A stretch of 45,130 bases of DNA from Treponema sp. GTDB taxonomy: Bacteria > Spirochaetota > Spirochaetia > Treponematales > Breznakiellaceae. Position numbers and translations under genes: made by a program. The stretch lies in contig WQSP01000002.1 of the NCBI GenBank assembly GCA_009787795.1, positions 1 through 45,130 on the forward strand. The letters are read 5' to 3'. The notes below the pieces were generated by a model. The model saw only the letters and a program-made list of their open reading frames with translations. It had not been told where the DNA came from and made no database searches. Below are positions 9,252 to 44,460 of the stretch, one piece after another. Every line of letters begins with the position of its first letter. Positions within the stretch are counted from its first letter, which is position 1.

Positions 9252-9258
9252 GATTCCA

Positions 9259-13989: not shown

Positions 13990-14897
13990 AGAAAGTTGTC
14001 TTTTTACCGCTAATTTTCATCTCATGTTTTTTTCTTGGCGGCTGCGCAGGTTCTGCGGCTTCTGCGGAAGAATACTTCGCTATAGGCATGGCTTACTTTG
14101 AGCTTGGAAAATACGAGGAAGCGGAAAAATGGCTTACAAGGGCAAGACAGTCAAACAGGACAATGGTTGCTTCCACATACAACCTTGGTCGTCTTGCGTT
14201 CGAAATGGGAAGATATGAGGATGCCGCAAGACATTTTGAAAGCATTTTAAGAAGGGACAGGGAAAATGTTCTTGCCCTTAAAGCCGCAGCATATTCAAGA
14301 ATAATGACAGGCGACATGGAAAATGCGGAAAGGCATTATGCGAAACTTTTGGAACTTGTCCCGGAAAGCGCGGACTCGGGCTACAATCACGCGCTTGTGT
14401 TATTCGCAATGGAAAGATACGCAGACGCGGAAACTGTCCTTGAAAGATACCCTGTTGCCCTTCTTGAAAACAACGACAACCTTTTGCTTTATGCGAGAGT
14501 CAGGGCGGCATTGAACAAAGTTGAAGCCATCGATCATTTTGCGGCATGGCTGGAAACGAATTCAAATCCAAAAGTGCGCTACGAATTCGGGCAATCCCTG
14601 GAAAAACACAATTTTTACGCAAGAGCGCTTGGCGAATACAGAAAAGCGTATGCCGATTCCACTGCCGCTTCCGTCGACCCGAAAAGAAGCGACGTGCGTT
14701 TTGCAATTGCAAGAGTTCTCCTGATTGCCGACGGCTCTTCGGGCGAAGGAATCACGGAGCTGCAGGGAGCGATTACGGAAGGTTTTAACAACATTGCATC
14801 TGTCGAAGGATTGGTTTCCAGAGTGTCAGGCTCCAACAGGGAAACAATAAGAAACATCATTAACAGTTTGCGGCAGGCATCAGAAACTAATCCTTAA
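13986..14897 (+). CDS. TPR lipoprotein
   Basis: The 303-residue protein has a lipoprotein signal peptide (MKKVVFLPLIFISCFFLGGCAG, lipobox LGGC) and then about six TPR-like units: EEYFAIGMAYFELGKYEEAEKWL, ASTYNLGRLAFEMGRYEDAARHF and ALKAAAYSRIMTGDMENAERHY. Membrane-anchored TPR proteins usually serve as assembly or transport adaptors in the periplasm. Here it ends the barrel-gene operon, and its 3' end overlaps the convergent giant outer-membrane protein gene by 18 bp. The link with those barrels is inference. Confidence 0.82.
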   Translation: MKKVVFLPLIFISCFFLGGCAGSAASAEEYFAIGMAYFELGKYEEAEKWLTRARQSNRTMVASTYNLGRLAFEMGRYEDAARHFESILRRDRENVLALKAAAYSRIMTGDMENAERHYAKLLELVPESADSGYNHALVLFAMERYADAETVLERYPVALLENNDNLLLYARVRAALNKVEAIDHFAAWLETNSNPKVRYEFGQSLEKHNFYARALGEYRKAYADSTAASVDPKRSDVRFAIARVLLIADGSSGEGITELQGAITEGFNNIASVEGLVSRVSGSNRETIRNIINSLRQASETNP

Positions 14898-17800
14898 CGA
14901 TGTACCAAGCTGTATGTCAAAAACAATTAAATCCGTATATTGATTCTCGTTGTATCTCAACTTGATAAATGTCGTAAAATTCATCCTTCCCAAAATTCTG
15001 ATTGTTTCTTCATGTCCAAGTATAATGCTCCATCTTAAATCGTCTTGTGTTTTGTCAAAAATAATTTCCAGTGTTTCTTTTCTTAGCTGTTCGTAACTTG
15101 AATTGAAAAAAAGCGTAAACCCGTTCCAATTTTGATTTTCATCGATTAGCGAAGAAACCCAGTTGTAAAAAACGCTTAAAAGGCTTTTTTTGGTTGGCGC
15201 TTCCCATCCTGCGACAAAACTTTCAAGCCAATAACCGTCTGTGCGTATTGTAAAAGTGTTTGCAAATCCAAGAACGCCTCCCGTAAATCCCCTGAAACCT
15301 GCATTTAACGAAGATTGCACCCTCCAAACAGGCGTTGCGTCTTTTGGAATTATTACCGCAGCTTCGATGCCGTGCGAAAACTCGTCTGTTTGGTAAAATG
15401 CAAAAATCGGCGTATTTCCCATAGCGCCGAACATGTTAATCGAAGAAAAGCCAAGGCTTCCTGCAATGTTCAAATTGTCCGCTCTTGTATCCAATTTTTG
15501 CTCCAAAATTCTTTCGATGCGAAAATTGATTCGTGAAGGAACAAAAAACGAAGCCAAATTGTACATTGAAGGAAGATTGATCCTTACGCTAAAATGATCG
15601 TTAAAAGACGTATATTGGGAAATATTTGCAGACGGCGAATTCATTATCGCCTCGTCCATTGCGGTTTCAAGGTCGGGAGAAAAAAGCGAATAAAAGGGAA
15701 ACACTTTCCAAAGAGCAAACGAATCTGTGACCAATTCAAAAAACTTGTCCGCATCATCCGTTACATCGTATCCCGAAAAAAAGACGTTCTTTTTAAAAAA
15801 GCGTCCCGCCCTGAAATTTACGCCGGTTCTTTCAAAAACAACCGGAACATCAAGAAACAGCGAATATTCGGATAACGTAAGATTGTTGGCGCCGGTAAAA
15901 TTTGTCATGCCCTGAAACGCAAGAACGGCTCCCACCGGTTTTGTCCTTTGCGTTATTACAACCTGCGATATTGTCCTTCTTGCATCGGTGCCTGTTCCCG
16001 AATCCGGAACAAGCGGCGCAAAAGTTCTTAGCCACAGTTCGCCGTAATTTTCATTTTCCTCAATTCTGTTTTGTTTTGTCCATAAAGCCTCGCCCGAAAC
16101 CAAAAATGAGGGGATATGTTCGTTTTTGGGAATGAAGCCCGTACTGGCATTCCATCTTTGTCTGAGTCTTCCAAGTTCATAAAGAGCGTCTGCGTCAAAT
16201 TTCGCATGAAAATCGGAAGCAAAACCGATATTAAAAGAGTGACGCGCCTCTTCTGTTCCGGGCGATGCAAAAAACGTCTCTCTCGCATAAAACGCTCCCA
16301 TTGTTTTTGATATTTCATGATCCGCGTTCCACAAAAAAGCGTCGTCTGCCGCAGTAAAACCAAGATTGCCCGAAACATTTATGCCAATCAGGGTAACTTG
16401 CGCGCCTGTTCTGGAAATCGCGCTGCCTGAAAATTGCGCGCCGCTTTGCGCATTCGCTTCCGATTCAAATGCGGAACTTATCGAAAAATTTTCCAAAACG
16501 GAAATGTTTCCCAAAGAAAGGATAACGCCCGGTTTTGAATAATTGACAAAAGCTCCCGCATTTGCCCTGTAAAGCATAACAGGGTCTTCCAAAATAATTT
16601 CATCGATAAAAACGGAACCCGCATCCAGAGACTGCGCCTGATTCAGGGGATCTATAAAAATTGCAATGTAGCTTGTCCTTCTTTCGTTGTCGGGGTTTGC
16701 CCTTACTCTTCTGTAAACGGGAGGAGCAATGTCTTCGTTAAATCCGTCCACAAAAACGGATGCATTTTCTCCCTGATACCTGACGGTTACTTTTTTCCAC
16801 ATGTTCGGATTGTTATGCGTAAACGCCCTGATTGGAATTTTGGCTTCCAACTGCGGATTGGACAACGAAGCGTCTCCTGTCAGCACAATGAAACTAAGGA
16901 TTGCGTTTTCGTTTGACGTGTTTGGCACTCTTGCAAAAAAAGACAGTTCCCTGTAATCGCCAAGAGGCACTTCCCGAATCCTTCCGTCGACACCCGCGCT
17001 TGCTCCCGGAGGCATATTCTGCCAGCGGATTTCCAAAACTCTCTGCGTGTTTTCAAACGGGTGCAGTCTGTTTACAATCGACGGATATGCGGATTCCAAA
17101 TTGTTTGCTCCAATCTCTCTTGTTTCAGAAGCTGTAACAAGATTTGTAACTGGATTTATTTCATTGTTTTCTTTTGCAACAGCCCTGAAGATCGAACTTC
17201 TTACAACAGGAGGAGCAAGAATTACGCGCATAAAAATGCTGCCTGTGCCGTTGTAAACTGCGGCTATTCTCAGGTATTTTGCATCTGCAAGTCTTCTTCT
17301 TTCTTCGTCGTTAATTTTAAACCGCGCAACAGTGTAATCGCCCGAAGCAAAATAAAACGCATTTGCATCTGTTTCATTCGGAAGAAGGGATTTTTCCCAT
17401 ATAAGGTTACTGTTTTCCGATATTTCAAAATCGCCCGTTCCAAGAGAGCCTATTTGCACAATGATCCTGAAATTGCCGGGAGGAAGGGCGTCATACAATC
17501 TGAAAGGAATTTCAATTTCCGAAGCCCGCGATAAAATTTCCGCATTCAATCCCAAAGGAACCTGATAACCGCTCCATTCGCCGTCACTTAACGAAATCTC
17601 CGCCGTTAACGCTTGAGCGTTTCCAAGCTGCGAATCCCTGACAGGGTAAGGCCTGTTTATCCCCGAAACAACAGGAGCGTTCCATTCTATCGTCATTAAA
17701 TTGCTGCCAAGCACATTGTTGTTAAAATAATTGCGGTAAACCAAATCAACGCGGTTTGCGGCATTCAGGCGCATTCCGTCCGCCAAATTAAAAGGATGCG

Positions 17801-19625
17801 ATATGAAAGAGGTTTCATGCGGCAAAGGAAGCGTTGTTTCGTATCCTTCCATTCCCGCAGCGCGGTAGAGACCTGTTGTATCCGCTTCAACTGCCGAGAA
17901 TCCCGCGCTTAAATGAGCATTGAAATTTTCAAATTTCCATGCGGCTTTTGCGCCAAGACCTACGGTTCCCGCGCTTCTTGAATCTTCCTGCGAAAACGAA
18001 TCGTCTGTCAGGTTCCATCTGACACCGAGCGCAGCTTGCGCGGTAAAATATTCCGCGCTGTTTTGATAAACCGCGCCAAGACCTGCCGCAATGCTTCCAA
18101 AACGCAATCCGTCGGTTTTTTTAAGATACGTTATGCGAATAGTTTCATTTTGACCTGCGGGGCTTTGGATTGACACTTCGCCCGACGACAAATTGTAATT
18201 GAAATTCGAATCCTGAATACCGCTTCGCCAAACCTGTATGGAACCGGGGATTGCATCGGTACCGATAAAATATCCGCTTGCGGAATTGAAATTTGCAAAC
18301 CTTAGCGCAATGTCTCCCGAAAATACGGATCCCGAAGGAACATAGATTTCAAACGCTTCGCCAGCCAACGGCCATCTGCTTTGCGGATCCCGTCTTGAAG
18401 CGCCGTTTCCAATCTTTGCAAGTTCAAATAACGCCCTGCCCCTTGTCTGCGTTAACGAAAGAACGTTATCCGCAAACAGGGAAGCGTCAATCTCCACAAG
18501 TTCAAAACCTTCGATTTCCCTGCCTGTAGAAAGTCTTATAAGGGACGCCCTTTCTGTCGAGCTGGAAGGCGCGTCATAAACATTACGCCGTTCAAACGGA
18601 GAAAAAGTTCCCGGTTGAAAAATTATCAAAACAGAATTGCCCGCGATTGTAAAATCCCAAGGGTTCTGCGAATCCGTTTCATAACACTGCGGATAATCCG
18701 CCAAATCGACATTCACATTTCCCGAATCAAACCAATCCTGAACATCGCGCAAAAACCCCGAGCCAGAATAGCTTCCCAAACCGATTTTATTCCCCGCATA
18801 GTGAACAGCAATCATTCCCGAAGGTCTTATGCTCATTTCCAAAAGACCATGCTCCCTTGAAAACGCGTATTCGCCTGAAGGCGCAATTCTCCATCGTCTT
18901 CCGTTTGATTCGGTTATTTCACCCCTTTCATCCTCGATATAAACCGTAATATCCGATTCGATGTTGGTGTCAGGCAAAACAAACGAAATGCCGTGAATTG
19001 CACCGGCAGGCGAAATGTCGGTGTATGTTCTTTCCCTGCTTCCCGTAAAAACACGCTCCTCCCTGGAAGCCGCATCGTATCTTAGCAACGCGTGAATGTT
19101 CAGTTTGTCCAAACCGAAGCGTCCGTAAAAACCGAATGAAGCAGGCGAATCTCCGCCAAGGTCCATGTACGGAAATGACGGAAAATCAAGCCCCGTGTTT
19201 CCGATTCCGGCATACTGAACGAACTCTCCCGGTTTTCCCCGGTATCCCGCCCTGTATGCATTTTGACTTGAATCGTCAAGGAAACTTGCCTCTACAAACC
19301 ATCTGTCGTTTATCCAAAGAGCCATTGTCAAATCGACTTCCTGTTTGAAAAGAAGGGGCGTGTCAGGCGATATGAAGCCCGTACCGACAGGAGATGCAAA
19401 AAACCCGAGGTTTCCCAAAAGCTCACCTTTCCACGAACCTGTCAAAAAAAGAACAACGTCGGAATCTCCAAGCGAATACCTCATGAATTCCCTTGGGTCT
19501 TCGTTTAGTATGCGACGGCGCAAATCGTTCATGTCGAGTTCGTGCGCAGGCTCGTCATCTGCAAAAATCGCATGATTGCAAATTACAATGAGGATGACTA
19601 TTAGAGCCTTACGCAGAACATGCAT
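14880..19625 (-). CDS. Giant outer-membrane protein with SprA-like layout
   Basis: The protein has ~1581 residues from the ATG at 19625. The ORF track offers a longer start at 19724, but the signal peptide MHVLRKALIVILIVICNHAIFA begins at 19625. Much of the chain alternates beta-strands and aromatic ends, finishing SLRISF like an outer-membrane barrel. Inside are phrases that recall SprA, the huge type IX translocon barrel of Bacteroidota: SGEVSIQSPAGQNETIRITY, and FIDEIILEDP followed by a restart of strands (NAGAFVNYSKPGVILSLGNI). The middle (~700-1080) resembles a carbohydrate-binding or jelly-roll-like segment (RVLEIRWQNMPPGASAGVDG, ...GSVFIDEI). Most likely it is a surface or outer-membrane assembly protein. 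The SprA link is pattern recognition only. Confidence 0.7.
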   Translation of the reverse strand: MHVLRKALIVILIVICNHAIFADDEPAHELDMNDLRRRILNEDPREFMRYSLGDSDVVLFLTGSWKGELLGNLGFFASPVGTGFISPDTPLLFKQEVDLTMALWINDRWFVEASFLDDSSQNAYRAGYRGKPGEFVQYAGIGNTGLDFPSFPYMDLGGDSPASFGFYGRFGLDKLNIHALLRYDAASREERVFTGSRERTYTDISPAGAIHGISFVLPDTNIESDITVYIEDERGEITESNGRRWRIAPSGEYAFSREHGLLEMSIRPSGMIAVHYAGNKIGLGSYSGSGFLRDVQDWFDSGNVNVDLADYPQCYETDSQNPWDFTIAGNSVLIIFQPGTFSPFERRNVYDAPSSSTERASLIRLSTGREIEGFELVEIDASLFADNVLSLTQTRGRALFELAKIGNGASRRDPQSRWPLAGEAFEIYVPSGSVFSGDIALRFANFNSASGYFIGTDAIPGSIQVWRSGIQDSNFNYNLSSGEVSIQSPAGQNETIRITYLKKTDGLRFGSIAAGLGAVYQNSAEYFTAQAALGVRWNLTDDSFSQEDSRSAGTVGLGAKAAWKFENFNAHLSAGFSAVEADTTGLYRAAGMEGYETTLPLPHETSFISHPFNLADGMRLNAANRVDLVYRNYFNNNVLGSNLMTIEWNAPVVSGINRPYPVRDSQLGNAQALTAEISLSDGEWSGYQVPLGLNAEILSRASEIEIPFRLYDALPPGNFRIIVQIGSLGTGDFEISENSNLIWEKSLLPNETDANAFYFASGDYTVARFKINDEERRRLADAKYLRIAAVYNGTGSIFMRVILAPPVVRSSIFRAVAKENNEINPVTNLVTASETREIGANNLESAYPSIVNRLHPFENTQRVLEIRWQNMPPGASAGVDGRIREVPLGDYRELSFFARVPNTSNENAILSFIVLTGDASLSNPQLEAKIPIRAFTHNNPNMWKKVTVRYQGENASVFVDGFNEDIAPPVYRRVRANPDNERRTSYIAIFIDPLNQAQSLDAGSVFIDEIILEDPVMLYRANAGAFVNYSKPGVILSLGNISVLENFSISSAFESEANAQSGAQFSGSAISRTGAQVTLIGINVSGNLGFTAADDAFLWNADHEISKTMGAFYARETFFASPGTEEARHSFNIGFASDFHAKFDADALYELGRLRQRWNASTGFIPKNEHIPSFLVSGEALWTKQNRIEENENYGELWLRTFAPLVPDSGTGTDARRTISQVVITQRTKPVGAVLAFQGMTNFTGANNLTLSEYSLFLDVPVVFERTGVNFRAGRFFKKNVFFSGYDVTDDADKFFELVTDSFALWKVFPFYSLFSPDLETAMDEAIMNSPSANISQYTSFNDHFSVRINLPSMYNLASFFVPSRINFRIERILEQKLDTRADNLNIAGSLGFSSINMFGAMGNTPIFAFYQTDEFSHGIEAAVIIPKDATPVWRVQSSLNAGFRGFTGGVLGFANTFTIRTDGYWLESFVAGWEAPTKKSLLSVFYNWVSSLIDENQNWNGFTLFFNSSYEQLRKETLEIIFDKTQDDLRWSIILGHEETIRILGRMNFTTFIKLRYNENQYTDLIVFDIQLGTSLRISF

Positions 19626-19632
19626 CTTATGA

Positions 19633-19663
19633 TATAATAGCTTTAATTTCATGGTTGTTTCAA
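19633..19663. promoter_or_regulatory. Overlapping divergent promoters
   Basis: On the minus strand TTGAAA (19663-19658) is followed after 18 nt by TATTAT (19639-19634), 8 nt before the giant gene's ATG at 19625. On the plus strand TATAAT (19633-19638) lies 12 nt before the DUF503 ATG at 19651, with only a poor -35. The two -10 boxes share the same base pairs, so only one can be occupied at a time. Confidence 0.5.
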
Positions 19664-19938
19664 TGATACAGATAATATTCGAGGTTCCCGATTCCGTAAA
19701 CATAAAGGAAAAAAGACGCGTCATAAAGTCGATAATCGAAAAAATGAAACGGCGTTTCCAATTGAGCGCAGCCGAGGTTGATCTTCAGGATTCTCTTGCT
19801 TTCTGCCAAATAGGAGGGGCTCTTGTTTCAAACTCGCGCACATTCGGAGAGTCGGTTCTTCAAAAGGCGTTTGCCATGATAGAAAACGAAACATCTGTCC
19901 GCATTCAGGACATGAAAATACATTCGGAGGAATTTTAA
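19651..19938 (+). CDS. DUF503 (YlxP-like) protein
   Basis: This small 95-residue protein matches DUF503: MVVSMIQIIFEVPDSVNIKEKRRVIKSI, then AAEVDLQDSLAFCQIGGALVSN. It follows the family pattern of a ferredoxin-like fold with the invariant KEKRR helix. Members are often next to rbfA/infB and are suspected to act in ribosome or RNA biology, but no function is proven. The next gene begins with a 1-bp overlap (TAATG). Confidence 0.85.
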   Translation: MVVSMIQIIFEVPDSVNIKEKRRVIKSIIEKMKRRFQLSAAEVDLQDSLAFCQIGGALVSNSRTFGESVLQKAFAMIENETSVRIQDMKIHSEEF

Positions 19939-31060: not shown

Positions 31061-31076
31061 AAAAGACTTTTACTTT
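31054..31076. terminator. AT-rich inverted repeat between convergent GH30 and GH10 genes
   Basis: AAAGTAAAA and TTTTACTTT form a perfect 9-bp stem around AAGAC. It covers the GH30 stop codon and the stop of the intracellular GH10 gene. It has one GC pair, so it would be a weak bidirectional terminator at best. A short T-run follows on the plus side. Confidence 0.45.
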
Positions 31077-32092
31077 TTATCCCGCTTCTGTCCTTCTTCG
31101 ATTAATGAACCTACAACCGGTTTTTCCTTTTTGTTTTCGTCGAAAAGGAGCGGCCAGTTTTTTCGTTTCGGCACAGGGAAATCGTCAAGCCATGTATAAC
31201 AGTCCGCGATGCCCCATGTTGTAATGTTCTTTACCGCAGAAGAGGTGGAAGCCGCGCGAAAAAGATTCTTATATGTTTCTGCCTGTTTTACAATTCTTTC
31301 TTCGGGTCTTGATTTGAAAAATTGCGATGATTCCCTTTTTTCGTCCCATTCATAAATGGAAATGTCAACTTCCGTAAATTCTATTTCCAGCCCCAACTTT
31401 GAATATTTTTCTATCGCGTTAACGATAATTTCTTCTTTCGGAAAATTGTAATACCAATGCGCCTGAATGCCCACTCCGTTAATCGGAACGCCCTTGTCAA
31501 GAAGCCTTGAAAGAAATTCCAATGAAACGTCCATTTTTTTCCCCGATTCGTTGTTGTAATCGTTGTAAAAAAGTTTTGCTTTTGGACAAATCTCCCTCAT
31601 TCTTTTAAAGGCAAATTCGTAAACATCATTGCCGCAAATTTTATACCAATCGCTTAATCTAAAACCGTTTTCATCGCCCTTGTCAACATCGATAACTTCG
31701 TTTAGCACGTCCCACGAATACACCACATCGCCATATCGGTTTGCAACTTCTGCCATGTGGTCTTCCAGTCTTTTGTACAGTTTGTTTTTTGAAACAGTTT
31801 CGCCGTTGTCCAAAAAAAGCCACGAAGGATTCTGATTGTGCCAAAGCATGACATGACCGCGCATCGGCATATTGTTTTTTCTTGCGTAATTAGCTACCAG
31901 ATCACTGTCATCCCATTTATACATGTTTTCTTCGGGATGAACAGGACCGAATTTCATTCCGTTTTCCACTGTCAAAGTCGAAAAATGCTTTTTTATAAGC
32001 GCATCATATTCCGGGTCGTTCATCATTTTGCCGCATACAGCAGCCCCTACATGGAATGAATGTTTCCACGCGTCTTTTAAACCAATGCTCAT
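31070..32092 (-). CDS. GH10 endo-beta-1,4-xylanase, intracellular
   Basis: The 340-residue GH10 enzyme has no signal peptide, so it probably cuts imported xylo-oligosaccharides. It starts MSIGLKDAWKHSFHVGAAV, and carries the substrate loop MRGHVMLWHNQNP, the acid/base in SWDVLNEVID (E132), FYNDYN and the nucleophile in EIEFTEVDIS (E241). The WGIADCYTWLDD and WPLLFDENKKEKP tail is typical of the intracellular GH10 (IXT6-like) group. It is convergent with the secreted GH30 gene and divergent from the regulator gene, so it is regulated apart from the secreted xylanases. Confidence 0.95.
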   Translation of the reverse strand: MSIGLKDAWKHSFHVGAAVCGKMMNDPEYDALIKKHFSTLTVENGMKFGPVHPEENMYKWDDSDLVANYARKNNMPMRGHVMLWHNQNPSWLFLDNGETVSKNKLYKRLEDHMAEVANRYGDVVYSWDVLNEVIDVDKGDENGFRLSDWYKICGNDVYEFAFKRMREICPKAKLFYNDYNNESGKKMDVSLEFLSRLLDKGVPINGVGIQAHWYYNFPKEEIIVNAIEKYSKLGLEIEFTEVDISIYEWDEKRESSQFFKSRPEERIVKQAETYKNLFRAASTSSAVKNITTWGIADCYTWLDDFPVPKRKNWPLLFDENKKEKPVVGSLIEEGQKRDKK

Positions 32093-32138
32093 GTTCCTAT
32101 TATTAGAATAATTTTACAGTATGAATATAGGTAAATTG

Positions 32139-32172
32139 TACTATAGTATATATAAGAAAAACATTGTATCAT
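32139..32172 (+). promoter_or_regulatory. Regulator promoter with 10-bp palindrome in place of -35
   Basis: The perfect palindrome TACTATAGTA (32139-32148) is centred about 36 nt before the ATG at 32179. The -10 box TATCAT (32167-32172) lies 6 nt before that ATG. There is no TTGACA-like box at the right place, so the palindrome occupies the -35 zone as a class II activator site would. It also lies upstream of the divergent intracellular GH10 gene. Confidence 0.4.
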
Positions 32173-32178
32173 GTTTTA

Positions 32179-32853
32179 ATGGGTAGAACCGGGTATACGA
32201 GGGTTTTAATCGTAGACAATCAGCCGCTTTACAGCGAAGGACTGTCTTCCGTTTTGGAGAAAGCGGGAAAATTCAGCGTTATAGGCATTGAAAGCGAAAT
32301 GGAAAACGCGTTGAGATTGGCGGAAAAGGAAAAGCCTCATCTTGTAATAATGGAAATTTTTCCCGGAAGGGAAAACGGACTTGACCTTATATCCAAATTG
32401 AAATCGGCAAGTCCCGAAATATCGATTCTTGTAATATCGGCAAACGAGGAACGCTTTTATTCCGAGAGGGTTTTGCGTCTTGGAGCGCGGGGATATGTCA
32501 TGAAAACGGCATCCGCCGAGCTTGTTATGGACGCAATTTCCACCGTTTTGGGCGGAAAAGTTTTTTTAAGCGAAAACGAGAGGGAAAGAATTTTTCAGGC
32601 ACTGACGGACGAAAGCGCGCGGGGGGCAAAAGATTGGCCGATATCGATTCAAAAACTTTCCAACCGCGAACTTGAAGTGTTCTCCCTGATTGGAAAGGGA
32701 TTCAGCACAATCGAAATTGCCACGCGTCTTAACCTTAGCACAAAAACAATCGATACCCACAAGGAACATATCAAGCTGAAACTGCATTGCATGACTTCCC
32801 ATGAACTTCGCCAGCAGGCAATTGAATGGTCCAATCATTCTTTGCCGGTCTAG
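32179..32853 (+). CDS. NarL/LuxR-type response regulator with Glu at phospho-site
   Basis: The receiver domain (~8-125) is followed by a LuxR-type helix-turn-helix (LSNRELEVFSLIGKGFSTIEIATRLNLSTKTIDTHKEHIKLKLHC). The receiver has the metal-binding Asp (LIVDNQPLY), the Ser of VISAN and the Lys of YVMKT. The phospho-acceptor position in HLVIMEIFPGRENG is Glu instead of Asp. Glu can mimic a phosphorylated Asp, so the regulator may be constitutively active or respond by other means. The ATG at 32179 is preferred over the track's TTG at 32164 because TATCAT lies 6 nt upstream. No sensor kinase is nearby. Position amid xylanase genes suggests control of this locus. Confidence 0.85.
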   Translation: MGRTGYTRVLIVDNQPLYSEGLSSVLEKAGKFSVIGIESEMENALRLAEKEKPHLVIMEIFPGRENGLDLISKLKSASPEISILVISANEERFYSERVLRLGARGYVMKTASAELVMDAISTVLGGKVFLSENERERIFQALTDESARGAKDWPISIQKLSNRELEVFSLIGKGFSTIEIATRLNLSTKTIDTHKEHIKLKLHCMTSHELRQQAIEWSNHSLPV

Positions 32854-32907: not shown

Positions 32908-34524
32908 ATGACAATCAAATATCGCAATCCGATTTTAAGCGGTTTTTACCCCGATCCTTCCATTGTAAGGGTAAACTGCGATTATTATCTTGTGACATCG
33001 ACTTTTGCCTATTTCCCCGGCATACCCGTTTTTCACAGCAGGGATCTGCTTAATTGGAGCCAGATTGGAAATGCGATTGATCGTCCCGGTCAGCTTTGTT
33101 TTGACGAAAACCAAATTTCTCAAGGGTTGTTCGCTCCGACAATTCGGTACAATGAAGGAACATTTTACATCCTTTGCACTTTGGTAAAAAACGGCGGCAA
33201 TTTCATAATTACCGCAGATGATCCCAAAGGCCCCTGGTCCGATCCGATTTGGCTTGAAGGCGCAGACGGCATTGATCCTTCCATTTTTTTTGATACAGAC
33301 GGAAAGGCGTGGTATCATGGAACTCATCCCGCTCCCGAAGGCGAAGCGTATCCCGGCAATTACGAAATTTATATCCGCGAAATCGATTTGAAACTTTTAA
33401 AGGAACGAAAGAATCCTCTGTCAGGTGATAATATCGGCATCTGGAGAGGCGCTCTTCGCAACGTAATTTGGCCTGAAGGGCCCCACATTTACAAAATAGA
33501 CAACGAGTATTTTCTTTTGCATGCCGAGGGTGGAACGGGTTTGGATCATGCCGTTTGCATCGCGAAAGCAAAAGACATTAAAGGCCCGTGGGAAGGAAAA
33601 AAAAGCAATCCTGTTGCAACTCACAGGCATCTTGGGAAAAGGGTGGGCATTATCAATGTTGGACACGCGGATTTGGTTGATGATGCAAACGGAAACTGGT
33701 ATATGGTTCTTTTGGCATCGCGTCAAATTGAAGGTGTCTGCCCTCTTGGACGCGAAACTTTTTTGATACCCGTTTTTTGGGAAGACGGCTGGCCGTTTAT
33801 AGGCACAGAATCCGGAATGATCGAAGAAGAAATCGAATTGGAAACAAACAGCGAAGAAAACAGGTCAAGAAGCGAAAACAAAAACGAATGTCTTACGGAA
33901 AAAGTCTGCGATCATTTCAAGGGGGTTATTCCCCTTAATTGGCTTACGCTTCGTCTTCCTTCAAACGAAAAAGATTTTGCCTTTTGCGTAAATGCAAGAT
34001 CCGACGCGCTTCGTCTTTTTGCAAAAAAAGCTACAATGAGAAGCATGGAACACCCTGCATTTGCAGGAAGAAGAATACGTCACATCAATTGGGAATTCAG
34101 CGCAGAAATCGAATTCATTCCAAAAAAAGAAAATGAATGCGCAGGAATTGTTATCCTTCAAAGCGAGGATTTCCAGTACAGACTTGAAATATTTTTATCG
34201 GAAAAGGGATATATGAGTTTGCGTCTGATTAAGGCGGCAGGCAAAAACACCGACGAGGAAACTGTCGCCGTTTGCGAACTTCATGCCGTGCAAAAATTCA
34301 TTATTTTAAAGGCAAACTGCATTGATATGGAACTTTCGTTTTTTTACGAGACGGACAACAAGCACATGATAAAAGTCTCGGGCGGACAGGACGCGCGCAT
34401 TTTAAGCACCGAATATGCGGGCGGATTCGTCGGTTCTCTTGCGGGGGTTTTCGCATCCGGAAACGGAACGGATACACAAAATTATGCGGATGTCCTATGG
34501 GCGGAATACAAGGAACTTGAATGA
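32908..34524 (+). CDS. GH43 beta-xylosidase / arabinofuranosidase
   Basis: The 538-residue enzyme has the five-bladed GH43 propeller at ~1-310. The base Asp is in SGFYPDPSIV (D16), the pKa-tuning Asp in GADGIDPSIFF (D123) and the acid Glu in IWPEGPHIYK (E190). A C-terminal beta-sandwich (~340-535) of the GH43 XynB-type completes the two-domain layout. It has no signal peptide and so is cytoplasmic, releasing xylose or arabinose from short oligomers. It starts 54 bp behind the regulator gene. TATTAT lies 6 nt before the ATG and no ribosome-binding site is present. The next gene overlaps by 4 bp. Confidence 0.93.
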   Translation: MTIKYRNPILSGFYPDPSIVRVNCDYYLVTSTFAYFPGIPVFHSRDLLNWSQIGNAIDRPGQLCFDENQISQGLFAPTIRYNEGTFYILCTLVKNGGNFIITADDPKGPWSDPIWLEGADGIDPSIFFDTDGKAWYHGTHPAPEGEAYPGNYEIYIREIDLKLLKERKNPLSGDNIGIWRGALRNVIWPEGPHIYKIDNEYFLLHAEGGTGLDHAVCIAKAKDIKGPWEGKKSNPVATHRHLGKRVGIINVGHADLVDDANGNWYMVLLASRQIEGVCPLGRETFLIPVFWEDGWPFIGTESGMIEEEIELETNSEENRSRSENKNECLTEKVCDHFKGVIPLNWLTLRLPSNEKDFAFCVNARSDALRLFAKKATMRSMEHPAFAGRRIRHINWEFSAEIEFIPKKENECAGIVILQSEDFQYRLEIFLSEKGYMSLRLIKAAGKNTDEETVAVCELHAVQKFIILKANCIDMELSFFYETDNKHMIKVSGGQDARILSTEYAGGFVGSLAGVFASGNGTDTQNYADVLWAEYKELE

Positions 34525-36380
34525 GTGGAATTGTTTTATCTCCGCTAATTGGCGACGGAATGATAATTCAGAGAGGATCCGCGTTTCCGATATGGTCGCA
34601 TAACGAACTTTCCGTTTCGTTTTTGGGAAAAACATACAAATCGCAAAAAAAAGACGGAAAATGTCTCATAACGCTTGATCCTGTCGTTTCCGGTTACGGC
34701 CCTTTTGACATGGAAATTTCTTCCAAAGACGCTTCTGTTACAATAAAAGACATTTACGCGGGAGACGTGTGGTTATGCTCCGGGCAGAGCAACATGGAAA
34801 TGCAAATGCAGCGCCTGAAAGACGATTTTGGCGAAGAGTGGAAAACGGATACCTGCAATTTGACAATCAGGCAGTTTAAGGTTTCGCAGGAATGGGATTT
34901 TTCGTACATGCGCGACGAATTGGGCGACGGAAAATGGCTTGTTCTTTCCAAAGAAACGCTTCATGATTTTTCCGCTGTAGCGTACTTTTTTGCAAAAAAC
35001 CTTTATCTGAAATACGGCGTTCCAATCGGACTTATTGCAACCGCATGGGGCGGCACTCCTGTAGAATCATGGATGAGCGAAGACGCGCTTTTAAAACATC
35101 CAAAAAAAATCGCCGAAGGAAAAAAGCATGCAAACGCCGGTTACAGAAACGAATTAACAAAAAGCAATTCGGCAGAAATCGGGGAATGGTATGCAAACCT
35201 TTCGCGCGAAGATTCAGGTCTTGCAAAAGACTGGAAAAGTCCCGACACCGATTTGTCTTTGTGGGACGAAATGACTCTCCCGGGCGATTTTTCCCAATTC
35301 GGGCTAACCGGTTTTTGCGGATCGATATGGCTTTGCAGGGATTTTGAAGCTTCCGCCGAATTTGCATCAAAGGAAATAAAAATATGGCTTGGAACAATTG
35401 TTGATGCCGACACAGTATACATAAACGGAAAAGAAACGGGGAATACAACATACCGCTACCCTCCCCGCAAATACATTCCTTCCGGTTTGATAAAGACAGG
35501 AAAAAACCGCATTGCAATCAGAGTTACGTGCAACACAGGCGAAGGCGGAGTTACATGCGACAAGCCTTTCCGCATTTTTACGGACAACGAATCCATAGAA
35601 CTTTCGGGAACATGGAAATACAAAATAGGCGCAAAGACAAAACCGCACCCGGAAGAAATTTTCTTTCAGCGTAAACCTATGGGAAACTTTAACGCCATGA
35701 TTGCTCCCGTTTTGAAATTCCCGTTGAAAGGCGTTATCTGGTATCAGGGCGAATCGAACGAATCCAATGCAAACGAATATGAAGAACTTTTCAGGCTTAT
35801 GATCGAAGACTGGCGAAACAAATATCTTGAAGATCGCATTCTTCCGTTTTTGTTTGTTCAACTGCCGGTATTCTGCCGTGAATCCGACAATGACGAAAAC
35901 GCCCGTTGGGCAATTTTGCGCCAGGCGCAGGAAGCCTGTCTTTCCATTCCATGCACGGGGATGGCGGCAGCATTGGAACTTGGCGAATGGAATGACATTC
36001 ACCCGATAAACAAAAAAGACGTTGGGTATCGTTTGTTTTTGGCAGCCGAAAAAATTCTTTTTGGCGTGACGAATACTTCGCCTGGACCCATGCTGAAAAA
36101 GGAATCGGGTGTCAAAGGTGAGAGGCCTGGCAAAATTTGTCTTTACTTTGACAACTGCGGCGACGGGTTAACGGCAAAAGAATGTTTTGTATCCGTTATC
36201 GCAGACGAAGGACAGATTCGTTTGCCGGCAAAAATCGAAGCGAAGGATTGCATAAGTATTGATGTGTCATCCGTAAAAAATCCCAAAAAAATACTTTATG
36301 CATGGGCCGACAACCCGCGCGACAGGCAGCTTTTTAACAGCGAATCTCTTCCTATGCTTCCGTTTAAAATTGTACTTTAA
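34521..36380 (+). CDS. SASA-family (sialate O-acetylesterase-like) esterase
   Basis: The 619-residue chain has the SGNH-hydrolase-type esterase domain (PF03629 type). The nucleophile is in WLCSGQSNMEM (Ser90), the mid block is LIATAWGGTPVESW and GVIWYQGESN (~403-413), and the His block is in GEWNDIHPINK (D492, H494). A jelly-roll-like insert (~240-370; GSIWLCRDFEASAEF, GTWKYKIG) sits inside. The family contains sialate O-acetylesterases, but in xylan loci members act as acetylxylan esterases. It has no signal peptide and so is intracellular. It overlaps GH43 by 4 bp (ATGA) and precedes nadE by 10 bp. Confidence 0.88.
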   Translation: MSGIVLSPLIGDGMIIQRGSAFPIWSHNELSVSFLGKTYKSQKKDGKCLITLDPVVSGYGPFDMEISSKDASVTIKDIYAGDVWLCSGQSNMEMQMQRLKDDFGEEWKTDTCNLTIRQFKVSQEWDFSYMRDELGDGKWLVLSKETLHDFSAVAYFFAKNLYLKYGVPIGLIATAWGGTPVESWMSEDALLKHPKKIAEGKKHANAGYRNELTKSNSAEIGEWYANLSREDSGLAKDWKSPDTDLSLWDEMTLPGDFSQFGLTGFCGSIWLCRDFEASAEFASKEIKIWLGTIVDADTVYINGKETGNTTYRYPPRKYIPSGLIKTGKNRIAIRVTCNTGEGGVTCDKPFRIFTDNESIELSGTWKYKIGAKTKPHPEEIFFQRKPMGNFNAMIAPVLKFPLKGVIWYQGESNESNANEYEELFRLMIEDWRNKYLEDRILPFLFVQLPVFCRESDNDENARWAILRQAQEACLSIPCTGMAAALELGEWNDIHPINKKDVGYRLFLAAEKILFGVTNTSPGPMLKKESGVKGERPGKICLYFDNCGDGLTAKECFVSVIADEGQIRLPAKIEAKDCISIDVSSVKNPKKILYAWADNPRDRQLFNSESLPMLPFKIVL

Positions 36381-37176: not shown

Positions 37177-37248
37177 GTCTCCATCGTCTAGCGGTTAGGA
37201 CACCGGGTTTTCATCCCGGCAACCGGGGTTCGATTCCCCGTGGAGATG
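37177..37248 (+). tRNA. tRNA-Glu (UUC anticodon)
   Basis: The cloverleaf folds with a GTCTCCA/TGGAGAT acceptor (closing G-U), anticodon stem CCGGG/CCCGG with loop TTTTCAT (anticodon TTC), T-arm CGGGG/CCCCG around TTCGATT, and discriminator G. It reads GAA and GAG Glu codons. The CCA tail is not encoded (GTTAAA follows), so it is added later. A near-consensus promoter is directly upstream and no clear terminator is downstream. Confidence 0.96.
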
Positions 37249-37703: not shown

Positions 37704-40700
37704 TTAATACATATCCGCTCTCAGCATTGCGCCTTCGTAATTTGTATCGGTCAAATAACCGACAATCATGGTTTTCGTCAAGCTGTTATGGAAACCGGCT
37801 GTAGCAGTCCCTGAAGGTGTGCCGCTTGTCGGTACGCCGCTAGAAATAATCTGACCCGATGCAGGCGTATTTATAGCAGGAACGGTCATTACTTCCCATG
37901 CGCCTGTAAGTCTGTCGTTTTCATCCGAACCTGCTTTTAACGATGAGAAATCTTTTCGCCACGCTACTCTTATTGAATTTTTGGTTTCATCAAACGATGC
38001 GTGGAAATAAGAAATGTATGGAACATACCTTGTCTCTGTACCATGTGTTTCCTGACGAACATTAAGCATAATCCTTGTTCCTGCGGAAAGATATGTATCC
38101 ACCTTTACATATTCGGCCGCTGTAAATCTTGTAGCATTGGAAGCCGGTATCGATTGCCCTGACGGTACGGGTATTCTGCAATAGAAAAGTCCGCCGTTTA
38201 ACGAATCATAGTATGCAAGATGTATTGTGTTTTCCGCGTCTACCACCATATCAACATGCGATCCTGCAAGAGCATGCACTACTCTTGCTCTTGATTGCCA
38301 GTCGGCTGTAGTCGGTGTTTGAGGAACATTGGTATACGATGACGGTAAATCTCCGTAAGACATGACAAGGTTCTGGTTTGTTCTGTCGTACCATGCAATA
38401 ACGGGGCGTCCTGCATTTGAAGCTGACATAGCAGAACCTGTTGTATTCAAGAAACCTACGGCGGTAAACTGACTGCCTTGATGCGTTTGGCTGTTATTGG
38501 CAATTACATGGTTTGCACCGGTTGTATTAGTTGTACCAAATGTAGCAGTTGTTGTAGCGCCTGTTGTTAACCCGACACGAAGTCTAAGAGCGTTTGTGGC
38601 AGGAGTTAATGAGTCATAGTAACTTAAGAGTATTCGTACAGGATTGTTTGTCCCTGTAGTACCTGTAGTTTGTGTTGCAATTCTTGGTATTTGGAAACGA
38701 TCGCCGCCTGCCGCATCCAGAGTAGCAACAGCAGTACGCGCCCATGTGCCATTTCCTGTGTTTCCCGGGTTTCTGTGACCAAACCTGTATCCCGTTGAAC
38801 CTGCGGTCTGATCCGCAGCTACAGTATAAATCCACCCGTTTGAATCATACGCGACTGTAGTATGGCGCCACCTGTTTTGCGCGCTGAATACCCAGTTTGC
38901 AGTACCGTTAGCATCGGCAGTGGAGGCTGTCCATGCTCCCGTTCCGTTTTTTGTAGCCCATAACTCTCCTTGCGAAGTTGTGCTTCCACCGAAAGCCATA
39001 TACCAGTTGGAAGCAGGATCCATGCGCATAACAGGGTTAAGGAACGGGAATTCGGCTGAGGCTGTAGCTGTAGTACTGCCCATGAAAGGTCCAACCCGCC
39101 ATACATACAAGTTTCTGTCGTCTGTGAGGTTGTTATTGTTAAGATTGTTCGGTTCCTTGTTGTAATGCGCTGATGTATTGTTGCTGTTGTTAATCGCTTC
39201 GTACCATACAGGCGTTCCCGCTCCATTGCTTACGCGAACCCTCAATGCGCCGGAACTAAGAGTACCAATATTCGCGTTTATATTTGTTTTGGATCTTGCA
39301 GGAAGTCCTGTTGTTCCGCCGCCTGCCTCAAGAGTAAGACTGTTATTGGCAACAGTTCCGCCTATGTGAACGGTTGTTCTGTCGCCTTCATGGAAATTAA
39401 AACCCTTAATTTCTATAACTTCATTTTCCCTTACAGGATACCAGCCTGTGGCGGACCTGTTAAATGCCGACGGATTTGCCCTGAATGCATTGCTTAACAC
39501 AGTCTTTATTTCCGAAATATACGGAACAATATCGAAATTTGAAGTTACATTGGGGGATTTGCCAAGTTCCGATGCAAGACCGGCTGCATCATAAACAGTA
39601 AAGGTAATGGTTACATTGCTCGCCACTAGATTTGAATGCAAAGAGCTGTCCCATGCAAAATTCCAGTTTAATACATTGCCGTATTCGCCCGTGCTGCTGG
39701 TATCCGTAACTTCAAATCCCCACGGATTGGTTCCGTTTTTCATGTTTGCCATTGTGTAGCCTGTGGTTCCGTTGGCTGTACTTCCCGGCACCAATTGATT
39801 ATCATGCCATGTAGCAATATCAAAAGGATTGTTACTGTTATAACCCGGAATCGTTGCGGTAATCCTTCGGATACTGTTATTGTCCATTGCCTTACCCTTA
39901 AAGATGACCATTCCGCTTATATCCGCTCTTGCAGTGCCTGCTGCATGCTTTCGATATTGCACATAACCCATTCTCTTCCCGCTTGTATCCGTTACGACAT
40001 TCTGGTTGTATCCTGCCGCAGTTTCAGGAAGATCTCTTGCAACCCTGTCCAAATAATTTCTGAATGTGGGGAAAGGATTGGAAACGGTTTCATCCGCCAA
40101 ATCATAAAGCTGTCCTATAGGCAAAACCTCAAGCCGCGGGTTTAACGAATCGCCGTTTGTAATGCCAATGTTTATAAGTGCAACATGGGAAAGCTGATCC
40201 GCTCTGTGCGCATCGGTATCCGCGAAAGTTCCTACAGTATTGTCATATACATGAATAAGATAATATCTTGCCGCAGTTCCGTCCCTGTCCCATTCAATTT
40301 TTCCCGTATTGTCGTCAATACGAACATTGAGGGAATCTTCGGGGAAACCTGTTGTAAAATTAATCGCGTTGGTTACTGCATTACCGGTAAAATTTCCGGT
40401 TGCAAGAGTACTGCCTGTGCCGTCCGAATATTGCCAGGCTGAAGCTCCGCCTGTCAGTGAAACTGTTTTTGTAGCCATGAAAGTAACGCCTGCATATCCT
40501 GCGGCGTTTGCATGAGCTTCGGGAGCGCCATAATTAAACCACTCAAATGCTCCGGGAACATTAATTGTATATACCTTTCCTGCCTGTAAAGCGGTAGCAG
40601 CATTTCGCGTTGCATAATATACCCTGAAACGTTTTAGGCCATTTCCTTTCTCCGCATTTATGTCAAGGCGGAATCTTTGGTTAATTACCCTGAAATACGG

Positions 40701-43700
40701 CTGGTTTTCCCTGTATCCTATCGGGTCGGGACTGGTTACAGCCGGGAATAACATCAACTCATCGCTTCCGACGCTGCCGTTGCTGTCATTGTCCGTGCCA
40801 AGAGAAACAGTTTTAATTAAAGGCCGGTTATTGGCAACATAAATATTCGTCTGATAATGCGTTGCGTTCATTGCATGATCAAAAATCACATAATGCAGTA
40901 TGTATTTCCCGTCGGGGAGTTTTGTCGAATCGTATATAACAGACCAGTTTTTGACCGATCCTCCCGAAAATCCTGTGCCGCTTCCCGCAACATCCAAAGA
41001 ATTTTCGTCAATTACAATACCGTTGTTGTTTGAAAGCCATATACGTCTTCCCTTGTCGTCAAAATTAACTGTCTCAAGACCAATCGGGAAACGAATCAAA
41101 TGAGCAGGTGTTGTACCTTCTAAAGTAACAGTGCTTTGAGTTTCGGCTGTCGGCACTGTTCCTGTACGGTCTCTTCTTACATGGAATGCGGATTGCCTGA
41201 AGTCCACTCCGTCTGTTGCCAAAGCCCCATTGTTAAGGTACACAAACCGCCCCATACCGTTATTCGATGCGTTTGTCGGTTGACCTGCCGCTGCCGTATT
41301 GTCATCTCTTGCAAAGAATACAACCACTCTTTCAACATTTTGTACCCTTGTTTTGCCCACAGCGGAATCCCATGCCCTTCCCATTATTTCAAAATTGCCG
41401 TTTGCGGTCAAATAGCCTTCGTAAACCGCCATTGGATAGAAATTGTCAGCCTGCAATTGGATGACATAGTTTCCCTTAAACTTCCCGTCCGAATTGTCTG
41501 TACAGTCAACTCCTATCTGCAAAATATTTGGCGTTCCTGTCGGCAAATATGAATTCTGACCCGCATTAACATCATTTGTGTCAACAGGGATGTAAAGCGT
41601 ATATTCGTTGTTTTGCGTTTGGCCGGCAGGCGAATTGCGCACAATCCATGGAAGATTAAAATCAACCGGATTTGTCCGCTGAATGTACTCTGTCCATGCT
41701 CCGTTCATGTTAACCCTTATGCTTGTCAGATCCGAACTTGTTGTAAGCTTGGTAATTATAACAATATTTTTTGCCACCTTGTTTTCGCCAAAAGCGTATG
41801 CCTCGGTCATTAATGCCTTGTTTTGAGCATCCGCAGCAAGGTATTCATCCCATGTTCCCTTAATAATTGTCGGATCGCCTATGCGCGGAACATCAGGGCT
41901 GAACCAAAGGGTTATTTTTTCCGAGTAACCCGGAATCGGTTTCATGTTATGCGTGTCCGAAATGTACGAGTCTCTTGCGCGAATTTCAACTTCAACTTCC
42001 TGCAACACGCCGCTTGCAAACGTATTGTCGGGATTTTTTGGGGTTAACGGTTCATTGCTTTCCGTATTGAGATTCAAGAACCAGCTGACCGTAGAACCTC
42101 TGGTTCCGACACTTCCTCTTGGTTCGTTTATTGCCACAAAACCGCCATTTGCATCCGAATCGGGACCTCCAATATACCAGCCTTCTTTTGTTCTGTTATC
42201 CGATCCTTTAATCATTCTTACGCGCATTTCCATGGTGTGTATGTATTCATTGTCGTTGGCAAGACCTGTTACACGAACCTGTCCGCCTACAACCGCTCCG
42301 TTTGCAGGAGTATTGATAATTGTTTCCGGCATGTCCGCGTTTGGATCCAAAATCAAATTGGATTTTACAACCCTGACATTGCCCGCCATATCAACAATCT
42401 TAAACCAAATCGGTAAATTCCAAAGTTCCCTGCCCCTGTTATTCACAGTCACATAATAATTGGCAACAGTGCCGGCAACCGCATTTTCGGGAATGCTTCC
42501 GGGAAGACCTACGCAAAAATCGTAAATGTCATCGAACACCCATGTCCATGCAGGCAAAATTCCAATTATGTTCGGATCCTTCATCCATGATGAACGAATG
42601 GGAAGACCCGAAGGAAGAAGGTCAATTCCGTTTCCGGGATGATTCGTTATGGGCAAATGAATCGCACAATTCGGCAAACAGGATGAAATGCAATCATTAT
42701 CGCCCAAGCCTGTATTTATCCATCCTGTGAAATTCTCATTTTCTGCATCGGTTCCAAGTGTTGCAATTCTTGCTGTTTCTGTATGTCCAAGAACGTAGTA
42801 CATGCTGTGTACAATTTGATTGTCGAGCGTGGAACCCCTGATTGTCACAGTACTTGTTACAGTAGGTCCCGTATTCGGGGTTGTTTCATGTTTCATTCCC
42901 TGAGGCTGTATAAAATTTATATACGGCGGAGTTGAGTCAAACACAACAGGCTGTCTTGTTTCTGCAGTTTGTTCATCGCCGCCTTCCACTTTTATAAGCC
43001 AGTATTTTGTTCCCGAAAAATTGCCGCTTTGAATATCACTTTTAACTTTTTCCGGAGTCATTGTTATTCTGTATCCGTTTCCAGCCAAAGGTTCTCCATT
43101 TGACAGATTGGTGGCAGTCTCAATTGTAATATCGGACGAGCCTCCAAATACACCTGCAAGATCTTCCAGTCTAATAAGACTGGTATTGTCTATATCCGAG
43201 AATCTGGCGGATATGCCTTGTAACGTCATGCCCGGAATCGGCATTTCAACGGTTATTATTCCCGCAAATTCCTTGTTTGGATTATGGTAAGAAGGAGTTT
43301 CCCTTATCCTGACAATGGGATTTGTAGCTGCCGTAATCCCGATTGTCATGAATTTTATCGGGTTTTCTGCGGGAGTATAATTTGGATTTTCCACACGATT
43401 CGGATAATAATTGTAATTCGGATTTGCAAAAGAATCCTTTGTAATGATCATAACATTATAAGAACCGGGTTTTAACGAATCAAGCATCGCATGCGATTCG
43501 GATTTTAATGTTCCGTCATTGTGCAATTCAACCAAAGGCCAGCGGAACTGCATTGCGGTAATGTTATCCAATGGATTCATATTCAAAGGTCTGTACATGG
43601 AATCGACAACAGTATGCCATTTTCCCCATTTTTCATCCAAATGATCCCCTTCCAATTCGGAAGGCAATCCTGTATTGGGATTAATTTTGACAGGCAGTTT

Positions 43701-44366
43701 TGTAACGGAATCGATATTAGGCTCTCCGTAAAAATCATTGCCTTCGGCGGGCCATATCATTACTTTGGGATACCCTATCGCAATTCCTTTTGCGTCAAAT
43801 GCCGTACCCATCAAGTCCGTACCCACATAAATTTTATTTTCAGCCAAATCCTGCGTAAGGTTATGACTGTCAAACTGCTCTCCCCTTAATCTTGGAATGC
43901 TTAATTCAATCTGAGGAGGCGTGTTTTTTACAAAGTAAATCATGTCGGTTGTGGTTGTTGTATTTCCGCCCCTGTCTATTGCTGTTACCGTTGCCCTGAA
44001 TTCGCCGTCGCGCATATTCAACGCCACTGTATCGATATTCACTTCATAAAGTCCGTCGGCGTTTTTAACAGCCGGAACTCTTGCCGTTTGAGGATTGCCG
44101 TCAAGATCGGTAAAGCTGATATCCATAAAAACTTCATCGATGCCAAACGGCTGTTCGATATCAAGAATGATGGTGTTTGAATTTCCGAACAAAAATGCGC
44201 CGGGCGCGGCGGCACCTTCATCTTCCGGCATGCCGATAATCGGTCTGTCCGTATTTACTCTCATGCCCAAACCGACATCGCAGGCAGCCAACATAAGAAC
44301 CGCCATTACGGCAAAAATCGGCGCTCCCGCAAAGAGGATAACCCTATTTTTCGTCAATTTAAACAT
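37704..44366 (-). CDS. Giant Ig-like/IPT domain lipoprotein
   Basis: The protein is about 2220 residues from the ATG at 44366, which has GGAGG 5 nt upstream. The track start at 44378 reads the ribosome-binding site as codons. The signal peptide has lipobox LAAC (FAVMAVLMLAAC). The body is a string of Ig-like modules marked by recurring V.G.A.D......I phrases (VTIRGSTLDNQIVHSMYYV, VRVTGLANDNEYIHTMEM, VIFKGKAMDNNSIRRITA). An IPT/TIG-like module (NEVIEIKGFNFHEGDRTTVHIGG) follows at about three-quarters. The last ~400 residues look like a propeller (NWYMAFGG, GWIYTVAAD, HVDMVVDAENTIHLAYYD) interrupted by a Thr/Ala/Gly stretch. It is probably a long surface fibre or adhesin. Confidence 0.8.
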   Translation of the reverse strand: MFKLTKNRVILFAGAPIFAVMAVLMLAACDVGLGMRVNTDRPIIGMPEDEGAAAPGAFLFGNSNTIILDIEQPFGIDEVFMDISFTDLDGNPQTARVPAVKNADGLYEVNIDTVALNMRDGEFRATVTAIDRGGNTTTTTDMIYFVKNTPPQIELSIPRLRGEQFDSHNLTQDLAENKIYVGTDLMGTAFDAKGIAIGYPKVMIWPAEGNDFYGEPNIDSVTKLPVKINPNTGLPSELEGDHLDEKWGKWHTVVDSMYRPLNMNPLDNITAMQFRWPLVELHNDGTLKSESHAMLDSLKPGSYNVMIITKDSFANPNYNYYPNRVENPNYTPAENPIKFMTIGITAATNPIVRIRETPSYHNPNKEFAGIITVEMPIPGMTLQGISARFSDIDNTSLIRLEDLAGVFGGSSDITIETATNLSNGEPLAGNGYRITMTPEKVKSDIQSGNFSGTKYWLIKVEGGDEQTAETRQPVVFDSTPPYINFIQPQGMKHETTPNTGPTVTSTVTIRGSTLDNQIVHSMYYVLGHTETARIATLGTDAENENFTGWINTGLGDNDCISSCLPNCAIHLPITNHPGNGIDLLPSGLPIRSSWMKDPNIIGILPAWTWVFDDIYDFCVGLPGSIPENAVAGTVANYYVTVNNRGRELWNLPIWFKIVDMAGNVRVVKSNLILDPNADMPETIINTPANGAVVGGQVRVTGLANDNEYIHTMEMRVRMIKGSDNRTKEGWYIGGPDSDANGGFVAINEPRGSVGTRGSTVSWFLNLNTESNEPLTPKNPDNTFASGVLQEVEVEIRARDSYISDTHNMKPIPGYSEKITLWFSPDVPRIGDPTIIKGTWDEYLAADAQNKALMTEAYAFGENKVAKNIVIITKLTTSSDLTSIRVNMNGAWTEYIQRTNPVDFNLPWIVRNSPAGQTQNNEYTLYIPVDTNDVNAGQNSYLPTGTPNILQIGVDCTDNSDGKFKGNYVIQLQADNFYPMAVYEGYLTANGNFEIMGRAWDSAVGKTRVQNVERVVVFFARDDNTAAAGQPTNASNNGMGRFVYLNNGALATDGVDFRQSAFHVRRDRTGTVPTAETQSTVTLEGTTPAHLIRFPIGLETVNFDDKGRRIWLSNNNGIVIDENSLDVAGSGTGFSGGSVKNWSVIYDSTKLPDGKYILHYVIFDHAMNATHYQTNIYVANNRPLIKTVSLGTDNDSNGSVGSDELMLFPAVTSPDPIGYRENQPYFRVINQRFRLDINAEKGNGLKRFRVYYATRNAATALQAGKVYTINVPGAFEWFNYGAPEAHANAAGYAGVTFMATKTVSLTGGASAWQYSDGTGSTLATGNFTGNAVTNAINFTTGFPEDSLNVRIDDNTGKIEWDRDGTAARYYLIHVYDNTVGTFADTDAHRADQLSHVALINIGITNGDSLNPRLEVLPIGQLYDLADETVSNPFPTFRNYLDRVARDLPETAAGYNQNVVTDTSGKRMGYVQYRKHAAGTARADISGMVIFKGKAMDNNSIRRITATIPGYNSNNPFDIATWHDNQLVPGSTANGTTGYTMANMKNGTNPWGFEVTDTSSTGEYGNVLNWNFAWDSSLHSNLVASNVTITFTVYDAAGLASELGKSPNVTSNFDIVPYISEIKTVLSNAFRANPSAFNRSATGWYPVRENEVIEIKGFNFHEGDRTTVHIGGTVANNSLTLEAGGGTTGLPARSKTNINANIGTLSSGALRVRVSNGAGTPVWYEAINNSNNTSAHYNKEPNNLNNNNLTDDRNLYVWRVGPFMGSTTATASAEFPFLNPVMRMDPASNWYMAFGGSTTSQGELWATKNGTGAWTASTADANGTANWVFSAQNRWRHTTVAYDSNGWIYTVAADQTAGSTGYRFGHRNPGNTGNGTWARTAVATLDAAGGDRFQIPRIATQTTGTTGTNNPVRILLSYYDSLTPATNALRLRVGLTTGATTTATFGTTNTTGANHVIANNSQTHQGSQFTAVGFLNTTGSAMSASNAGRPVIAWYDRTNQNLVMSYGDLPSSYTNVPQTPTTADWQSRARVVHALAGSHVDMVVDAENTIHLAYYDSLNGGLFYCRIPVPSGQSIPASNATRFTAAEYVKVDTYLSAGTRIMLNVRQETHGTETRYVPYISYFHASFDETKNSIRVAWRKDFSSLKAGSDENDRLTGAWEVMTVPAINTPASGQIISSGVPTSGTPSGTATAGFHNSLTKTMIVGYLTDTNYEGAMLRADMY

Positions 44367-44460
44367 ACAAACCTCCATATATTCCCATGAATATCGCCAG
44401 AAATTTCAAAATATGCAAATTTGGACACACTTTTCCAAAATATGCATAACTAATACCTTC

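Follow-up and report, generated by a model that had tools for sequence, protein, structure and literature searches.

The NarL/FixJ family of response regulators (NarL, VraR, LiaR, RcsB and DesR) includes the closest described counterparts of the regulator analysed here, with which they have domain order, length, fold and the active-site Ser and Lys in common. Among its PDB matches NarL is best by sequence, and VraR and LiaR are best by fold. It is unlike them in carrying Glu at the acceptor position and Asn in the acidic pair, and in having no partner kinase. Glu is the commonest acceptor replacement, found in 26% of aspartate-less receivers (PMC4395418). Most characterised receivers of this kind are orphans, in which a change of DD2 to Asn is a common co-change, and the origin and activation of pseudo-receivers have been described as largely unknown (PMC12632262). 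Many receivers are activated by substitution with Glu, though some are not, and Glu is often insufficient alone (PMC4395418, PMC12632262). In ChxR of Chlamydia, which also has an acceptor Glu, this residue is dispensable for DNA binding (PMC4395418). ChxR is of the OmpR/PhoB type whereas the present regulator is of the NarL type and, unlike ChxR, has kinase-bearing sister lineages and an operator that can be traced. The same substitution at the same position has been made in the laboratory in NtrC (cited in PMC4395418) and in RcsB (D56E; PMC6394985). Here, in contrast, it has arisen naturally and become fixed in a clade.

A further point of comparison is a LacI-type HisKA_3 kinase paired with a NarL-type regulator, which is widespread in Treponema (including T. 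bryantii). This pair shares with our locus the regulator family, the operator and, often, neighbouring GH10 or sugar-transporter genes; the difference is that the genus studied here is without the kinase. We found no published account of the pair in Treponema and, in the open literature, no two-component system for xylan from a spirochaete in which the kinase is of the LacI type.

The window, that is, the whole stretch of 45,130 nucleotides that was analysed, forms a single contig in a Treponema assembly of 1.83 Mb (205 contigs, 71% complete). Its close relatives that bear names are Treponema MAGs and, judging by their isolate codes, are probably termite-gut organisms. The regulator lies in a glucuronoxylan locus with genes for GH2, UxuA, GH67, two GH10, GH30, GH43 and a SASA esterase. 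The genes next to it and the relevant parts of the protein are:

31070-32092, minus strand: divergent GH10 gene (Pfam PF00331), 340 aa, signal peptide not evident
32179-32853, plus strand: NarL-type regulator of 224 aa, receiver and GerE helix-turn-helix (HTH) (Pfam PF00072 and PF00196)
32203-32538, plus strand: receiver domain (Pfam PF00072)
32215-32220, plus strand: acidic pair Asp13-Asn14, in which Asn replaces the second acid
32353-32355, plus strand: codon of Glu59, the phospho-acceptor position (alignment to NarL Asp59)
32437-32439, plus strand: Ser87, the switch Ser/Thr, invariant in 82 family members
32503-32505, plus strand: Lys109, invariant in 82 family members
32653-32793, plus strand: GerE (LuxR-type) DNA-binding domain, residues 159-205 (Pfam PF00196)
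32908-34524, plus strand: GH43 gene (Pfam PF04616), 54 nt 3' of the regulator
34521-36380, plus strand: SASA-type esterase gene (Pfam PF03629), overlapping the end of the GH43 gene

With its N-terminal receiver and C-terminal LuxR/GerE HTH, the protein has the NarL/FixJ architecture, yet by its sequence it is non-canonical as a response regulator: the phosphorylatable Asp is replaced by Glu59, which makes it a receiver fold without acceptor Asp. The original prediction had placed Glu at this site, and phmmer agrees, pairing LVIMEI of the regulator with LILLDL of NarL so that Glu59 falls on NarL Asp59; no better alignment therefore restores an Asp. The prediction had also described the metal Asp, the Ser and the Lys as retained. 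This holds (Asp13, Ser87 and Lys109), but the acidic pair is broken at its second position (Asn14). In an AlphaFold2 model (mean pLDDT 85.5), residue 59, Ser87 and Lys109 lie where beta3, beta4 and beta5 end, the positions they have in receivers of the NarL type. The top PDB folds for the model are VraR and beryllofluoride-activated LiaR, and active and inactive receiver states are indistinguishable in it. In the DNA-binding domain, Cys204 (KLHC; 32788-32790) is invariant across a 42-member family alignment.

Glu at the acceptor site is rare. The 67 receivers read from the genome of the window have Asp in 65 cases, Gly in one and Glu only in this regulator. The Gly receiver (L333, G000:C76:4122-4421) is atypical and a weak match (43.9 bits). 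In a family of 82 members drawn from Treponema and other Spirochaetales, Asp occupies the site in 76 and Glu in six, with Ser and Lys invariant; about 80 more regulators read across the order revealed no further Glu. Glu is conserved in orthologues: it is found in all five members of one clade (the window, G006, G027, G014 and G032:C44; support 100/95), which share 65 to 69% identity with the window regulator and in all of which the reading frame is intact. Related regulators of the same genus (G018, G013, G009 and G032:C16) retain Asp, so that G032 holds one copy of each form. The sixth Glu, in L076, is a separate Asp-to-Glu change, since a single clade for all six is rejected (p-AU 0.0025). 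L076 (5703-6368) is from Spirochaetaceae Cf509_bin31, a genome without the partner kinase.

A kinase gene encoding about 700 aa is found near the regulator in 60 of the 82 loci compared (immediately divergent in 49) but in none of the Glu loci. It adjoins or lies near the regulator at L056, L058, L065, L072, L077 and L125. The protein combines Peripla_BP_3 (a LacI-like sugar-binding domain) with HisKA_3 and HATPase_c and, as it has no leader, is presumably cytoplasmic. This fusion of a LacI-type sensor of sugars with a HisKA_3 kinase is taken to be the ancestral partner of the regulator.

No partner kinase gene accompanies the regulator. Pfam identified no kinase among the scanned window proteins, and when 40 genomes from the genus (some of them 94 to 100% complete) were searched with a profile, no full-length homologue emerged; relocation of the gene was rejected on this ground. 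A second search showed the kinase to be absent from the genome of L076 and present in 16 other genomes tested, including those of its sister L071 and of the nearest outgroups, L056 and L058. Both Glu lineages are therefore kinase-less, and two losses are enough to explain the tree. Kinase loss is nevertheless insufficient as the sole explanation of Glu, which does not follow automatically from it, because four kinase-less relatives hold Asp. With only two Asp-to-Glu events, and hence two independent pairs, a formal correlation between kinase loss and Glu has no power and cannot reach significance.

We then compared conservation along the protein. Three regions (helix 1, the end of beta4 and the beta5-alpha5 loop) were taken, from general knowledge of kinase-receiver complexes, as kinase-facing, and the controls were 2000 sets of five kinase-bearing relatives with divergence similar to that of the Glu clade. 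Mean identity at these positions is 49% in the Glu clade, whereas no control set falls below 67%; the comparison is descriptive, because the control sets are phylogenetically non-independent. HTH identity, in contrast, is 85%, above nearly all controls, and the linker is also better kept (70% versus 36% in controls). The kinase-less Asp relatives are not eroded in this way: their kinase-facing identity is 71% and its ratio to that of the HTH is 0.96, compared with 0.58 in the Glu clade. Four regulators (L047 1501-2148, which is G032:C16, L055, L057 and L066) combine absence of the kinase with Asp and an uneroded surface. Such regulators may therefore receive phosphate from another source, for example some other kinase. 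For the Glu regulator, the lack of the ancestral kinase in the genus, the clade-wide Glu and the eroded surface agree with the prediction, and its status as an orphan acting independently of a kinase is well supported by the comparative data.

The intergenic region contains the following features:

32099-32105, minus strand: TAATAAT, -10-like box of the GH10 gene (direct reading)
32126-32145, no strand: interrupted dyad TATAGGTAAATTGTACTATA, 20 bp, probable operator of the regulator and GH10 genes (orthologue conservation)
32139-32148, no strand: palindrome TACTATAGTA, overlapping the dyad, with a GTA arm that is not conserved
32167-32172, plus strand: TATCAT, -10-like box of the regulator (position shared with boxes in orthologues)

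The palindrome TACTATAGTA is perfect and present as predicted, and a genome search does find it, albeit at a single place in the 1.83-Mb assembly. The further claim that it also lies upstream of the divergent GH10 gene does not describe a second copy: both genes share one 86-bp intergenic region, and it is one and the same site that is seen from either side. Of 100 shuffled versions of the window, 13 contain a match with at most one mismatch. We do not consider TACTATAGTA to be the operator, as orthologues retain TACTATA but lose the GTA arm. What they have in common is the 20-bp dyad, which begins 13 bp further upstream (orthologue consensus CATAGGGAAATTGTACTATA). In all five Glu members it occupies exactly -53 to -34 relative to the ATG, and a matrix derived from them recovers the dyad in held-out upstream regions of the family (20/77 at p <= 0.01 and 34/77 at p <= 0.05, against dinucleotide shuffles); it was not found upstream of the L076 regulator.

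In the window the dyad centre is equidistant from the regulator and GH10 genes, 43.5 nt away from either start codon. The same layout is seen in L084, L058, L056 and L073 which, together with the window, have a regulator-GH10 intergenic region of 86 to 88 bp (GH10 by Pfam) and 42.5 to 46.5 nt between the dyad centre and both ATGs. L058, L056 and L073 are Asp forms from genomes with the kinase, and the operator and its layout thus predate Glu. That Glu is needed for association with GH10 can be rejected, as these Asp types also have the divergent GH10.

The predicted TATCAT, 6 nt before the regulator ATG, is in place (orthologues carry TAGTAA or TAGGAA at the same position, -12 to -7) and implies a transcript start at or adjoining the ATG. 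An intergenic consensus scan revealed no sigma-70 hexamer pair directed toward the regulator ATG, in line with the missing -35 hexamer of the prediction, and because of this absence the promoters look activator-dependent. The arrangement of dyad and -10 boxes suggests class II activation at two promoters, for which an autoregulator would be expected to have its site around -41 of the promoter driving its gene. The conserved putative operator at a fixed distance from the gene's own start codon makes the proposed self-control well supported. Rfam detects only a tRNA (37177-37248), and an RNA element between the regulator and GH10 genes was rejected.

The reach of the regulator seems to be short. 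The exact dyad occurs once in the genome, where there is no second strong dyad, and matches with one to three mismatches are no commoner than those to a reversed-pattern control. When the window is scanned with the matrix, the best score is 29.8 bits and the next best is 7.7, below the 15.4 reached by shuffles. A genome-wide xylan regulon is rejected on these grounds, and the single strong site points to local control of the regulator itself and GH10. Of the proposed switch for xylan genes, the divergent GH10 is thus retained while the wider set of genes, lacking a second strong site in window or genome, is not. The GH43 gene is possibly co-transcribed with the regulator in this genome, and GH43 and the esterase gene are perhaps reached through read-through.

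Our preferred reading, to which we give a probability of about 0.62, is that this is a former two-component NarL-type regulator, now free of its kinase, which would bind the dyad as a dimer and switch on both its own gene and GH10, and in which Glu59 probably biases the receiver toward activity. It builds on what can be read from the sequences: the Glu and its fixation, the absence of the kinase, the eroded surface, the conserved candidate operator and the symmetric layout. The ancestor would have had as its partner a histidine kinase that sensed sugar through a LacI-type domain; this kinase would then have been lost from this Treponema genus and the acceptor Asp changed to Glu in one clade. 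A dimer bound midway between the two promoters would replace the missing -35 contacts and activate both genes, a positive autoregulation. We infer binding to the dyad, and activation rather than repression. By this reading the protein is a kinase-independent pseudo-receiver regulator that is probably self-activating. Mimicry of phosphorylation by Glu59, which would push the receiver toward an active-like state, is a plausible hypothesis. Asn14 and the other relaxed positions could indicate instead that the receiver is degenerating.

It is possible, if unlikely, that the regulator is constitutive and independent of a kinase through other changes in receiver or linker, Glu59 being simply tolerated. 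ChxR with Asp or Ala at this position still binds DNA (PMC4395418), many other receiver positions are relaxed (including Asn14) and the linker is unusually well kept in the Glu clade. However, of 20 possible residues it is Glu that every one of the five clade members carries and that recurs in L076, and the pocket Ser and Lys are invariant. Rather less probable is an autorepressor, which would sit over the -35 position to block its own promoter and that of GH10 until relieved by some ligand or modification. On the regulator side as on the GH10 side, the operator lies across the position of the promoter core, which would fit, but the absent -35 hexamer speaks for dependence on an activator, and NarL-type relatives with such operator geometry usually activate. 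We regard as very improbable a decaying remnant, with Glu, Asn14 and the eroded surface reflecting neutral drift after loss of the kinase. Erosion of that surface, and retention of Asp by four kinase-less relatives, would fit; an HTH more conserved than in nearly all controls, and the Ser87, Lys109, operator, -53 to -34 spacing and open frame kept in 5/5, would not. Continued control by an unrelated kinase or a small phosphodonor, at Glu or another residue, is equally improbable: other HisKA_3-type kinases do occur in the genome, but the acceptor has changed and the docking surface is eroded past all controls.

As a NarL-type aspartate-less receiver, the regulator stands out by its traceable evolutionary series and central operator. 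Kinase-bearing Asp, kinase-less Asp and kinase-less Glu states coexist (G032 with both copies), several of them sharing the operator, and this makes the order of events and natural phosphomimicry by Glu testable. More tentatively, and with the odds somewhat against it, selection after kinase loss may have twice changed Asp to Glu and, in the termite-gut clade, converted an inducible two-component system for xylan into a constitutive, self-amplifying single-protein switch that acts from the central dyad on the regulator and GH10 genes. Where wood is constantly supplied, gut spirochaetes may have given up the sensing of substrate for some of their xylan machinery.

Elsewhere in the window, two very large ORFs on the minus strand (37704-44378 and 14880-19724; 2224 and 1614 aa) have no Pfam match, and an Omptin-family outer-membrane protein of this gut spirochaete is encoded at 9250-10230 on the plus strand.
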